A stretch of 64,000 nucleotides of DNA from an uncultured Bacteroidia bacterium (lineage in GTDB: Bacteria > Bacteroidota > Bacteroidia > Bacteroidales > UBA932), in the NCBI GenBank assembly GCA_902768665.1, contig CACXMA010000008.1, forward strand, positions 28,188-92,187. The letters are read 5' to 3'. The translations under genes and the position numbers were made by a program. The notes under the pieces were generated by a model. It was not told where the DNA came from, searched no databases, and worked only from the letters and a program-made list of their open reading frames with translations. Below, piece after piece: positions 8,038 to 58,241 of this stretch (position 1 is the first letter of the stretch; each line of letters starts with the position of its first letter).

Positions 8038-8940
8038 TCAGAAACGGGCTGTTTCCCGGTCCTTCTCCAGCTGCGTGCGAAGGGCGTCCAGAGAGGGGAA
8101 ATGGATCTCGGAACGGATGCGGCGCAGGAAACGGATTTCCAGCGGAAGGCCGTAGATATCCTGGTCGAAATCGAGGATATGCGTCTCGATGGTGCGGGAC
8201 GTGCCGCCGACCGTAGGGCGCGTTCCGATGTTCGTCATTCCCCGGTATTTCCGGCCCAGCACTTCCACCTCCACGGCATAGACGCCGTTCCCGGGCACCA
8301 GCTTCAGCGGCTCGTAGAGCTGCATGTTCGCCGTCGGGAAGCCGATCGTGCGGCCGAGCCGGTTCCCCGCCACGACAACGCCCAGAAGGCCGTATCCATA
8401 TCCCAGCATGGCGTTCGCGGCCGGGATGTCGCCAAGCGACAGCGCTTTGCGGATCAGGGTGGAAGAAACGGCCTGACCGGGCACGAAATCGGGCATTTCC
8501 GTGCCCGATGGAGCCAAAACGGCCGGGCCGGGCACGAAAACGGGCAATTCCGTGCCCGATGCCAGTTCCAGACTCGTTTTCCGGTCCGAGCCGATGCGGT
8601 TGTCGTAGCCCATGACGGCAAGAGAGGCGCCATAGCGCTGCTTCAGCAGCCGCAGGTACTGCTCTGCCGTCATCGCGGCGAAGGACCGGGTAAACGGGAT
8701 CACCTCCACGCGGTCGATACCCAGACCGAGCAGCAGCGCCTTTTTCTCCTCCAGCGAGGTCAGCAGGCGGAAATCGCGGGCGTCCTGCTGCAGGACGGCC
8801 CTCGGATGTGGCCAGAACGTAACGACCAAGGCCTCCTCTCCCCTTTCACGGGCAGAGGAGACCAGGGTCTCGAGGACATGACGGTGGCCGAGATGGACGC
8901 CGTCGAAAAAGCCGGTGGTTACTACAGCCACTTGACGCAC
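8038..8940 (-). CDS. ribF: Bifunctional riboflavin kinase/FMN adenylyltransferase
   Basis: A 300-residue cytoplasmic enzyme converting riboflavin to FMN and then FAD. The FAD synthetase part (about residues 1-165) has the nucleotidyltransferase motif GFFDGVHLGHR and the STLIR motif; the riboflavin kinase part has GRTIGFPTANM and the NIGTRPTVGG region. Between GYDNRIG and SSTLIR there is an unusual stretch in which a 14-residue segment (SGTELPVFVPGPAV / SGTEMPDFVPGQAV) occurs twice, encoded by 51-base-spaced palindromic repeats. The gene overlaps the end of the upstream synthase-phosphorylase fusion by 19 bases and is the last gene of the glycogen operon. The frame stays open through the repeats, so the gene is probably functional. 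Confidence 0.93.
   Translation of the reverse strand: MRQVAVVTTGFFDGVHLGHRHVLETLVSSARERGEEALVVTFWPHPRAVLQQDARDFRLLTSLEEKKALLLGLGIDRVEVIPFTRSFAAMTAEQYLRLLKQRYGASLAVMGYDNRIGSDRKTSLELASGTELPVFVPGPAVLAPSGTEMPDFVPGQAVSSTLIRKALSLGDIPAANAMLGYGYGLLGVVVAGNRLGRTIGFPTANMQLYEPLKLVPGNGVYAVEVEVLGRKYRGMTNIGTRPTVGGTSRTIETHILDFDQDIYGLPLEIRFLRRIRSEIHFPSLDALRTQLEKDRETARF
8477..8561. repeat. Tandem pair of palindromic repeats inside ribF
   Basis: Two 34-base units (8477-8510 and 8528-8561) start 51 bases apart and differ at only 2 of 34 positions. Each can fold as CGGGCACG...CGTGCCCG with a further AAAT/ATTT inner stem and a CGGGC loop. The 51-base period keeps the reading frame. Confidence 0.9.
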
Positions 8941-55319: not shown

Positions 55320-56432
55320 TTATTCGTCTCCGTGGGCTCTCGCCAATCCGATGTAGATCGACGACAGCATCGTAAAAACATAGGCCTGGATGAACGCCAC
55401 CAGGCACTCGAGGGCATCGAGGAACACGCCGAAGACCACCGACACGACGCTCATCGAGCCGAGGATCACCGAACCGTATTTCGCGACGATGAAGATGACG
55501 CAGACCATGCTCAGGATCATGATATGCCCCGCCATCATGTTGGCGAAGAGTCGGATGGTCAGCGAGACCGGCTTCATCAGGGCCGAGAAGACTTCGATGA
55601 CCGGCATGATCGGCTTGAGGAAAACCGGCACCTCCGGATTGAAGATTTCCTTGTAGTAGTGCTTCGAGCCGAAGATGTTGACCGTAAAGAAGGTAAAGAG
55701 CGCCAGCACAAGCGTCACGGCGATATTGCCCGTCAGGTTCGCGCCCCCCGGGAAGAACGGCACGATACCGAGGAAGTTGTTCAGCAGGATGAAGAAGAAG
55801 GCCATGCACAGGTAAGGCGAGAACCTGCGGTAGTCGCGTTCGCCGATGTTCTCGCGGGCCATGTCATGGACCATCATGATCAGCGGCTCCATCAGCGCGG
55901 CTATGCCCGTCGGCTTTTCCTTCAGCACGTCGTGCCGGCGGTACCACCTGGCCGTGGCGAGGATGATCCAGAGCAGGATGCCGCAGCTGATCAGCAGCGC
56001 CAGGACGTTCTTTGTGATGGAGATATCCAGCAGCGGACGCGCGCCCGTGGCCGCCTCCACGACCTTTCCGTCCGGACCGATGACAAAGCCGGCATAGCTG
56101 TGGCCATGCGCCAGCTTGTCGGACAGGAAGAGGTGGAAACCCTCCGTCCGGCTGTAGACGATCACCGGCAGCGGAATCGAGATGTGATGCCCGTTCACGG
56201 TCGTGATGTGCCAGTCATACGCGTCGCCGATGTGGTCGAAAATCACTTCGACGACATCGATGTCGGCAGATTTCCCGACTTCGCCTTCGGCTTCGCCCGA
56301 AATGACAGGGCTGTCATCTCGGCCAAGCGCTTCTTCATTGTCATCTCGACCAAGCGAAGCGCATGGAGAGATCTGCTCCGCAACAAAAAACAGAGCAACG
56401 ATCGACAGCAGTATGAGGGCGAGACGTTTCAT
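55320..56432 (-). CDS. atpB: ATP synthase a subunit with repeat-derived N-terminal insertion
   Basis: A 370-residue membrane stator subunit. As in other Bacteroidota, it has a signal-like N-terminus (MKRLALILLSIVALFFVAEQ) and a periplasmic N-terminal domain before the helices. The essential arginine is Arg294 in VSLTIRLFANM; five or more membrane helices follow from about residue 140. Residues about 20-57, including two copies of ALGRDD and the SGEAEGEVGKS stretch, are encoded by three short palindromic repeats (56268-56374). The gene overlaps atpC by four bases. The frame is intact, so it should be functional. Confidence 0.94.
   Translation of the reverse strand: MKRLALILLSIVALFFVAEQISPCASLGRDDNEEALGRDDSPVISGEAEGEVGKSADIDVVEVIFDHIGDAYDWHITTVNGHHISIPLPVIVYSRTEGFHLFLSDKLAHGHSYAGFVIGPDGKVVEAATGARPLLDISITKNVLALLISCGILLWIILATARWYRRHDVLKEKPTGIAALMEPLIMMVHDMARENIGERDYRRFSPYLCMAFFFILLNNFLGIVPFFPGGANLTGNIAVTLVLALFTFFTVNIFGSKHYYKEIFNPEVPVFLKPIMPVIEVFSALMKPVSLTIRLFANMMAGHIMILSMVCVIFIVAKYGSVILGSMSVVSVVFGVFLDALECLVAFIQAYVFTMLSSIYIGLARAHGDE
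56268..56374. repeat. Three AGAT(T/C)...ATGACA repeats inside atpB
   Basis: Copy A (56268-56307) begins AGATTTCCCGAC and ends CGAAATGACA. Copies B (56312-56338, truncated) and C (56339-56374, ending GGAGAGATCT) lie in the opposite orientation and both start TGTCATCTCG, 27 bases apart. Together 107 bases, kept in frame. Confidence 0.85.
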
Positions 56433-56674
56433 GCTTCGACGGCAAGTTCTACCTGGTCATCGGCGACTCTGACAAAGCCGCCGCGGATGGCGAGCATCTG
56501 CATTCCCTCCTCCGCTACATAGCGGACCTCCCCCGCAAGCAGCGGGGAGATGATGCCGGCATGGCCGGGAAGCACCTCGAAAGGCGCCTCGGCACCGGGG
56601 AGATACACCGCACTGACACGGGCGTCTGCGAGCGTGCCTTCCGGCGAAACGATATGTAGGTGCAAGTCTGTCAT
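56429..56674 (-). CDS. atpC: ATP synthase epsilon subunit
   Basis: An 81-residue protein equal to the N-terminal beta-sandwich of epsilon (LHLHIVSPEGTLADARVSAVYLPG, EVLPGHAGIISPLLAG); the C-terminal helical hairpin of the E. coli protein is absent, as in other Bacteroidota. The start is ATG at 56674, followed by ACA; both codons lie in the AAATGACA end of a palindromic repeat. A TTG at 56692 is in frame but less likely. Confidence 0.92.
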   Translation of the reverse strand: MTDLHLHIVSPEGTLADARVSAVYLPGAEAPFEVLPGHAGIISPLLAGEVRYVAEEGMQMLAIRGGFVRVADDQVELAVEA

Positions 56675-56702
56675 TTCGAGCGAGCGTAGCAAGTCGAGAA
56701 AT

Positions 56703-56704
<2 letters not shown>
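56669..56704. repeat. Palindromic repeat forming the atpD-atpC junction
   Basis: Read leftward it begins AGATTTCTCGAC and ends CTCGAAATGACA, the same ends as copy A in atpB. It starts within the atpD stop codon (56703-56705) and ends within the first two codons of atpC, so it makes up the whole gap. Confidence 0.85.

Positions 56705-58241
<1,537 letters not shown>

Follow-up and report, generated by a model that had tools for sequence, protein, structure and literature searches.

In the 64,000-nucleotide stretch of DNA analysed here (the window), 107 nt of atpB, at positions 56268-56374, consist of an in-frame dispersed palindromic repeat with two complete units and one partial unit. The insert is absent from G110 (the nearest relative among the matches listed), recurs at the same place in related species, shows a reading-frame bias and is tied to the number of copies of the repeat in the genome. 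Very probably, a REP-like hairpin element inserts widely in the genus and persists where AtpB has a variable periplasmic tail that is probably disordered. Insertion followed by filtering by selection would be the process behind this pattern.

The frame at 55320-56432 on the minus strand encodes the Fo subunit a of an F-type ATP synthase (370 aa, with the repeats at residues 20-55), as identified by Pfam ATP-synt_A (E 1.3e-58), an NCBIfam match to subunit A and an alignment with 30 relatives. The protein begins with a signal-peptide-like segment (MKRLALILLSIVALFFVAE; 56375-56432, minus strand), assigned from its sequence and from a helix at residues 2-21 of a structure model. In gene sense, this segment is followed by a complete forward unit of 36 nt, AGATCTCTCC..GAGATGACA (56374-56339, minus strand; covariance model E 1.8e-6), which is read in phase 1 and encodes residues 20-32 (the QISPCASLGRDD region); seen on the plus strand, it is a complete reversed unit TGTCATCTCGACC..AGATCT. 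Next comes a partial middle copy of 18 nt (56312-56329, minus strand), the head half CGCTTGGCCGAGATGACA ending GGCCGAGATGACA, or TGTCATCTCGGCCAAGCG on the plus strand, where it starts 27 bases ahead of the next copy; it is 94% identical to this neighbour and encodes the second LGRDD. After four further bases, a complete unit of 40 nt lies the other way round, its head facing that of the first (TGTCATTTCGGG..GGGAAATCT, 56307-56268; AGATTT..ATGACA on the plus strand; model E 1.8e-5). AtpB reads this unit as VISGEAEGEVGKS in phase 2, at residues 42-55. LGRDDNEEALGRDD belongs to the repeat-coded peptide, which lies upstream of DIDVVEV. Folding of the 107-nt block gave a z of -2.48, with 0 of 200 shuffles as low, and an Rfam scan of the window returned no family reaching its gathering score.

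The first-pass annotation had described three palindromic repeats in this block, which lengthen AtpB without a frame break, after the signal segment and before the conserved periplasmic domain. That observation is confirmed as real and correctly located, and it is broader than first noted. The expansion by a dispersed repeat, its placement, the preserved frame and the 27-base spacing that doubles LGRDD all hold. The middle copy, however, is a head half only, so that one of the three units is partial and just two are complete, and the encoded residues are 20-55 rather than 20-57.

atpB lies in the gene run atpD-atpC-atpB-atpE-atpF-atpH. Its ATG overlaps the atpC stop codon (ATGA) both in the window genome and in G110, which speaks for an atpB start codon upstream of the repeats. 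A further unit (56669-56704, minus strand; covariance model E 8.8e-9) makes up the whole atpD-atpC junction. Its first two bases finish the TAG stop codon of atpD, the upstream neighbour that encodes the beta subunit (56703-58220, minus strand; profile scan), and its ATGACA likely provides the atpC start, with the ATG at 56674-56672. If the repeat's ATG is the start, atpC (epsilon; 56429-56674, minus strand; profile scan of the 76-aa stretch 56429-56659) would be a short form of 81 aa, enclosed by both repeat sites. As a separate observation, an AtpC of only ~81 aa matches merely the N-terminal part of most epsilon models. G110 carries a 28-nt unit at the same junction, 8 nt shorter than that of the window genome (G000).

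The comparison genus was presumably Candidatus Cryptobacteroides and kin; the nearest named relatives are uncultured Bacteroidales, Candidatus Cryptobacteroides and Candidatus Cacconaster, many of them from the guts of ruminants and other animals. An AtpB match was present in 258 of 300 genus genomes, and 136 atpB loci from 134 genomes among the matches listed were examined, all of the genomes used being drafts. G110 is the closest relative among the matches listed, its AtpB being 89% identical over the alignment and 93% over the matched core, and it has the tail AQEEGEKD in place of the insert. At most loci, the encoded protein has a hydrophobic helix and a short variable tail ahead of a conserved HIGD.YEWH-like domain, and 108 of the 136 loci have no recognised repeat in the tail. 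Seven loci that were not automatically placed (L101, L106, L123, L126, L128, L138 and L150) were read by hand, and a strict detector was applied to the other 129. L080, whose N-terminus is missing at a contig end, was counted as insert-free, as were L134 and L073, which contain words resembling unit remnants; L095 and L144 are cut short, and automatic calling gave no clear start codon for L075, L113, L164 and a few others. Long AtpB tails with no recognised repeat were observed at L096, L122, L104, L130 and L030, one of them with tandem NIADATENTSAPEA-like copies. The length of the AtpB tail varies by routes other than repeats too.

Units of the repeat family stand behind the signal helix at 21 of the 136 loci, 19 of them at E<=0.05 (the others being L101 at 0.058 and L002 at 0.10). 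The same tail contains CGTC-headed palindromes at L066, L106 and L123, the last two found by eye, and a different dispersed palindrome (AGGGGATACCCTCTCC..GGAGAGGGTATCCCCT, L005:1420-1515) at five loci, namely L005, L062, L083, L102 and L100, the last of which also has a TGTC unit. This second palindrome has 13-21 matches in four genomes, two in a fifth and none in the window genome, a few matches being its own inverted arms. The total thus comes to 28 of 136 loci with a repeat in the tail (21 + 3 + 4 more). The strict detector scored 15 of 129 loci, compared with a mean of 0.06 and a largest value of 1 over 50 shuffles in the codon-shuffle control. At the position corresponding to the atpD-atpC junction of the window genome and G110, 260-324 nt upstream, model matches were found at 14 of the 136 loci (12 at E<=0.05); 56 loci in this survey were mostly about 4 kb long and 80 were at most 601 bases. 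Apart from the tail and the junction, one match at E<=0.05 was seen, located in L066 and beginning at the atpB stop codon.

The first-pass annotation had expected the insertion to be absent from relatives. Absence holds for G110 and for the repeat-free majority of loci, and the in-frame expansion stands, but the event is not singular: it recurs in related species and involves more than one repeat family. Nor was the segment ordinary, non-repetitive sequence in all relatives among the loci examined. The AtpB tail is apparently a hot spot that has been hit repeatedly. In-frame REPs are already known; it is the recurrence at one AtpB site that looks new. A literature search, which had most subscription papers beyond its reach, listed no title on REPs in AtpB; within the same reach, the repeat's sequence words led to unrelated titles only among the papers listed, and the words of the repeat-coded peptide to none.

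The dispersed nature of the repeat, on which the annotation had relied, was borne out by a genome-wide count. In the 2.03-Mb window genome, a narrow pattern gave 60 matches and a wider one 70, and both reversed controls gave 0. A covariance model of 24 units from genome-wide lists found the three atp units in the 64 kb and otherwise one match at E 0.3; its E-values are rough, several atpB units are identical to its training rows, and a first model hit the same places. At least one match of the wider pattern was present in 235 of 300 genus genomes, and 47 of the 134 genomes with examined atpB have 20 or more. Across the order, occurrence is patchy, with ten or more matches in 20 of 149 genomes (hand count, window genome included). 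Elsewhere in the window, 8466-8561 holds two 45-nt direct copies that are 91% alike and lie 51 nt apart, start to start.

The units seen are ~27-46 nt long, with a TGTC head and an AT-NNN stem with compensating changes, and often form a head-to-head pair; of the 21 atpB loci with an insert, 10 have a forward and a reversed unit so arranged. The head is TGTC in the window units and CGTC in L066, L106, L123 and L173, its conservation being partly built in by patterns that demand ATGACA. AT at the first two stem pairs and a CT tail, each present in 24 of 24 units, are also required by the patterns. Stem columns 5-22, 6-21 and 7-20 are paired in all 24 distinct units, with two pair types each, and 0 of 500 shuffles reach the covariation score. 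Since the units were hand-picked and the wider pattern already asks for Y opposite R at the stem, this covariation is partly built in and is support rather than proof. The stem comprises five constant or covarying pairs and one more in 22 of 24 units, the next column being unpaired in 21 of 24. When single units were folded, five of seven were no better than shuffles by a z of 2, and two had a z below -2.

Presence of the insert follows the repeat load of the genome. Loci with an insert numbered 0/23, 1/33, 3/32, 6/28 and 11/20 in genomes with 0, 1-4, 5-19, 20-59 and at least 60 matches, respectively (Mann-Whitney p 2e-7 for 133 loci, kinship ignored; L066, L106 and L123 were left out of the rank test and are inside the bin denominators, which sum to 136). 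Genomes with 20 or more matches also contain 29 of the 112 insert-free loci. The reversed units of atpB are in phase 2 in 18 of 18 cases, giving the frame VISSEVEKS/VIPSEAE. The atpB loci are not independent, which weakens both the dose and the frame statistics. Outside atpB, the same frame is preferred by 11 of 14 reversed units of the window genome (hand count). Stop avoidance is insufficient as a cause of this single frame, because the other two frames are stop-free in 24 and 27 of 29 own-genome units.

In stretches fetched from the window genome, the strict detector found 59 distinct units, about 20 of them inside genes (hand count by codon scores). These genes include those for DNA polymerase I (two units), DNA polymerase III delta', an AlkD-like repair protein, diaminopimelate epimerase and a U32 peptidase, and Pfam domains were found in 10 of 10 scanned proteins carrying units. 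The repeat is thus in frame in several unrelated genes, an RPE-like feature. The two units of PolA are separate and both in frame (L050 and L051, at C6:28120 and C6:28567). In two other genomes, one gene, putatively for urocanate hydratase, carries the same in-frame RSFAGAQDD insert (L297 in G176 and L300 in G027), with tandem GAQDDK copies in G176. Such a pattern of load and frame would result from widespread insertion and subsequent selection on the protein.

The AtpB structure model has a mean pLDDT of 61.5, with values below 50 at residues 12-69 and coil at 22-59. The low tail values have little weight, because most alignment rows are without the N-terminus and the model is poor overall; the periplasmic N-terminal tail is variable and probably disordered. 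Small-x-small is a simple rule for signal-peptidase cleavage sites. By this rule, nine of the 13 forward-unit loci have a site within unit-coded residues behind the signal helix, three have sites only outside them and one has none, and such sites are also present at 89 of the 108 insert-free loci. Candidate sites written by the unit are SFAVA/QDD and SFAGA/QDD in L009 and L163 (slash, putative cut), where cleavage would be predicted inside the repeat. The AGATYCTTCGCNNNCGCTCARGATGACA variant was searched in six genomes, two of which have it in atpB, giving 39 places, of which 30 loci were fetched. Judged by the N-termini, several other proteins contain a copy in frame and have no signal peptide, and both atpB copies are clearly after one. 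At L315, L319 and L324, the variant comes after a hydrophobic stretch, within short frames whose coding status is doubtful. A portable signal-peptidase module as a genome-wide habit was rejected, as the variant showed no preferential placement after signal peptides in the six genomes; the candidate cleavage sites in atpB therefore look like a local by-product.

We propose that the REP-like element spreads through genomes of this Bacteroidales genus, into genes and spacers alike, and that in atp operons it survives both at the atpD-atpC junction and in the part of atpB that directly follows the signal helix. Because the tail encoded there is variable and probably disordered, an in-frame insert would be tolerated. 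The surviving reversed copies are read in one frame, which is stop-free in all units and yields a polar peptide, and forward copies often bring candidate signal-peptidase sites, e.g. AVA/QDD. In the window genome, the head-to-head pair probably entered after the split from G110 (the alternative being loss in G110), and a later duplication of part of the pair's head would have produced LGRDD twice.

Several other explanations were weighed. The genus ancestor may already have had a REP pair in atpB, which most species have since lost and whose sequence has been replaced by the variant now current in each genome. The sisters L002 and L064 fit this, as their units agree in offset and phase and differ in stem variant, as does the junction unit, which differs in length at the same site in the window genome and G110. 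Indeed, L002, L064, L074 and L107 have a common offset of 41 and phase 2, so some inserts were probably inherited and later rewritten. As an account of the whole, shared ancestry is nonetheless unlikely: the 13 forward units use all three codon phases (2, 5 and 6 units) at offsets from 40 to 77 nt, the 23 loci of genomes without a match have zero inserts, a different palindrome occupies the same place at five loci, and L001 and L012 have insert-free sisters (L061 and L016), and L003 insert-free close neighbours (L067 and L072). In a tree of 55 AtpB cores with the tail left out, the insert state changes at least nine times for 11 carriers, a number not set against shuffles; the tree covers long loci only and comes from a short search, and of its 52 inner branches 15 are starred and 13 are open. 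Grouping nine of the 11 carriers as one clade was rejected (p 2.4e-5, the group having been named after the sequences were seen). With insert rows compared with second-palindrome rows only, three changes were counted, against 4.5 in shuffles, 42 of 500 being as low. An assembly artefact, in which a repeat-driven misjoin put the repeat into atpB, is scarcely credible. The genome is a draft of 26 contigs, 87.95% complete, and assemblies break at repeats; yet the frame is intact over 107 nt, the units are shorter than usual reads, the flanks are colinear with G110 and similar inserts occur at 20 further loci of other assemblies.

True exaptation would mean that the repeat-coded tail, or mRNA hairpins near the atpB start, are kept because they are of use, for example in setting the F1 to Fo ratio, in mRNA stability or in signal cleavage. 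In its favour, the two recurrent sites flank atpC, the reversed units always use one frame, and unit-coded residues hold a small-x-small site at most forward-unit loci. Against this, most loci have no recognised insert, presence follows genomic copy number as a neutral load would, the frame bias extends to other genes of the window genome, and small-x-small sites are common at insert-free loci, which makes exaptation improbable. The word 'exapted' in the first-pass annotation, in the sense of a selected new function, is unsupported. Tolerated insertion is the most likely mechanism and a selected role a possible one. On a bolder and rather doubtful conjecture, atpD-atpC-atpB would be a favoured landing zone of several hairpin repeats, in which RNA hairpins around atpC adjust F1 versus Fo supply; within atpB the element might also act as a portable export module, one frame, S-F-A-x-A-Q-D-D, offering a ready signal-peptidase site.

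These genomes provide a natural replicated experiment in how selfish hairpin DNA turns into protein. Repeat load varies among many related species, and a single essential gene logs the tolerated insertions by place and frame. This lets one test in-frame palindromic repeats as neutral passengers versus raw material, a question raised for Rickettsia RPEs. It also warns against taking the AtpB N-termini of these genomes for conserved sequence.

Among known systems, REPIN/RAYT elements (PMC3116915, PMC2817692, PMC6006769), in the accessible parts of these papers, resemble the atpB repeat as short hairpins in paired inverted arrangement with many copies per genome. Unlike in REPIN/RAYT, units of the atpB family do not flank the Y1_Tnp genes examined. 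PF01797 matches were found in 46 of 61 genomes searched, and a unit at the ends of the Y1_Tnp (PF01797) gene was present in 0 of 20 stretches from seven genomes (G000, G003, G004, G005, G019, G023 and G027), which rules out a RAYT link for these stretches; the PF01797 neighbourhoods of the seven genomes yielded no cognate transposase. Two unit-like matches were observed in such stretches away from the PF01797 gene, one inside the next gene, for an AlkD-like protein (L176, 1610-1645), and one about 1 kb away whose own sequence is chance-like (L193, 2629-2669).

The closest likeness is to CGTC-tagged REPs (Di Nocera, De Gregorio and Rocco 2013, PMC3733652). As described in the accessible part of that paper, these occur in Bacteroidetes among other phyla, with intragenic copies often in replication and repair genes, and have an unpaired CGTC or TGTC head, an 8-9 bp stem, a loop of 4-5 and tails that are mostly, but not all, CCA. 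The same part equates RPE-4 and RPE-6 with CGTC-4 and CGTC-1, palindromic and in frame in many protein genes, and by this description the Rickettsia elements, from another phylum, are like the atpB repeat in being palindromic repeats in frame within many protein genes. It also gives one same-site case, recB of two Xanthomonas species. As far as that part of the paper goes, the atpB repeat has in common with CGTC-tagged REPs the CGTC/TGTC head, the AT start of the stem, the mostly head-to-head pairs and no dedicated transposase, and differs from them in its CT rather than CCA tail, apparently in a 5 bp stem with an imperfect inner part, and in variable unit length and same-site recurrence in one gene across a genus. 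From the shared head, AT start, unit pairing and lack of a known transposase, the differing tail notwithstanding, the atpB repeat is placed as REP/RPE-like, a CGTC-like family whose repeated use of one AtpB site is the new part.
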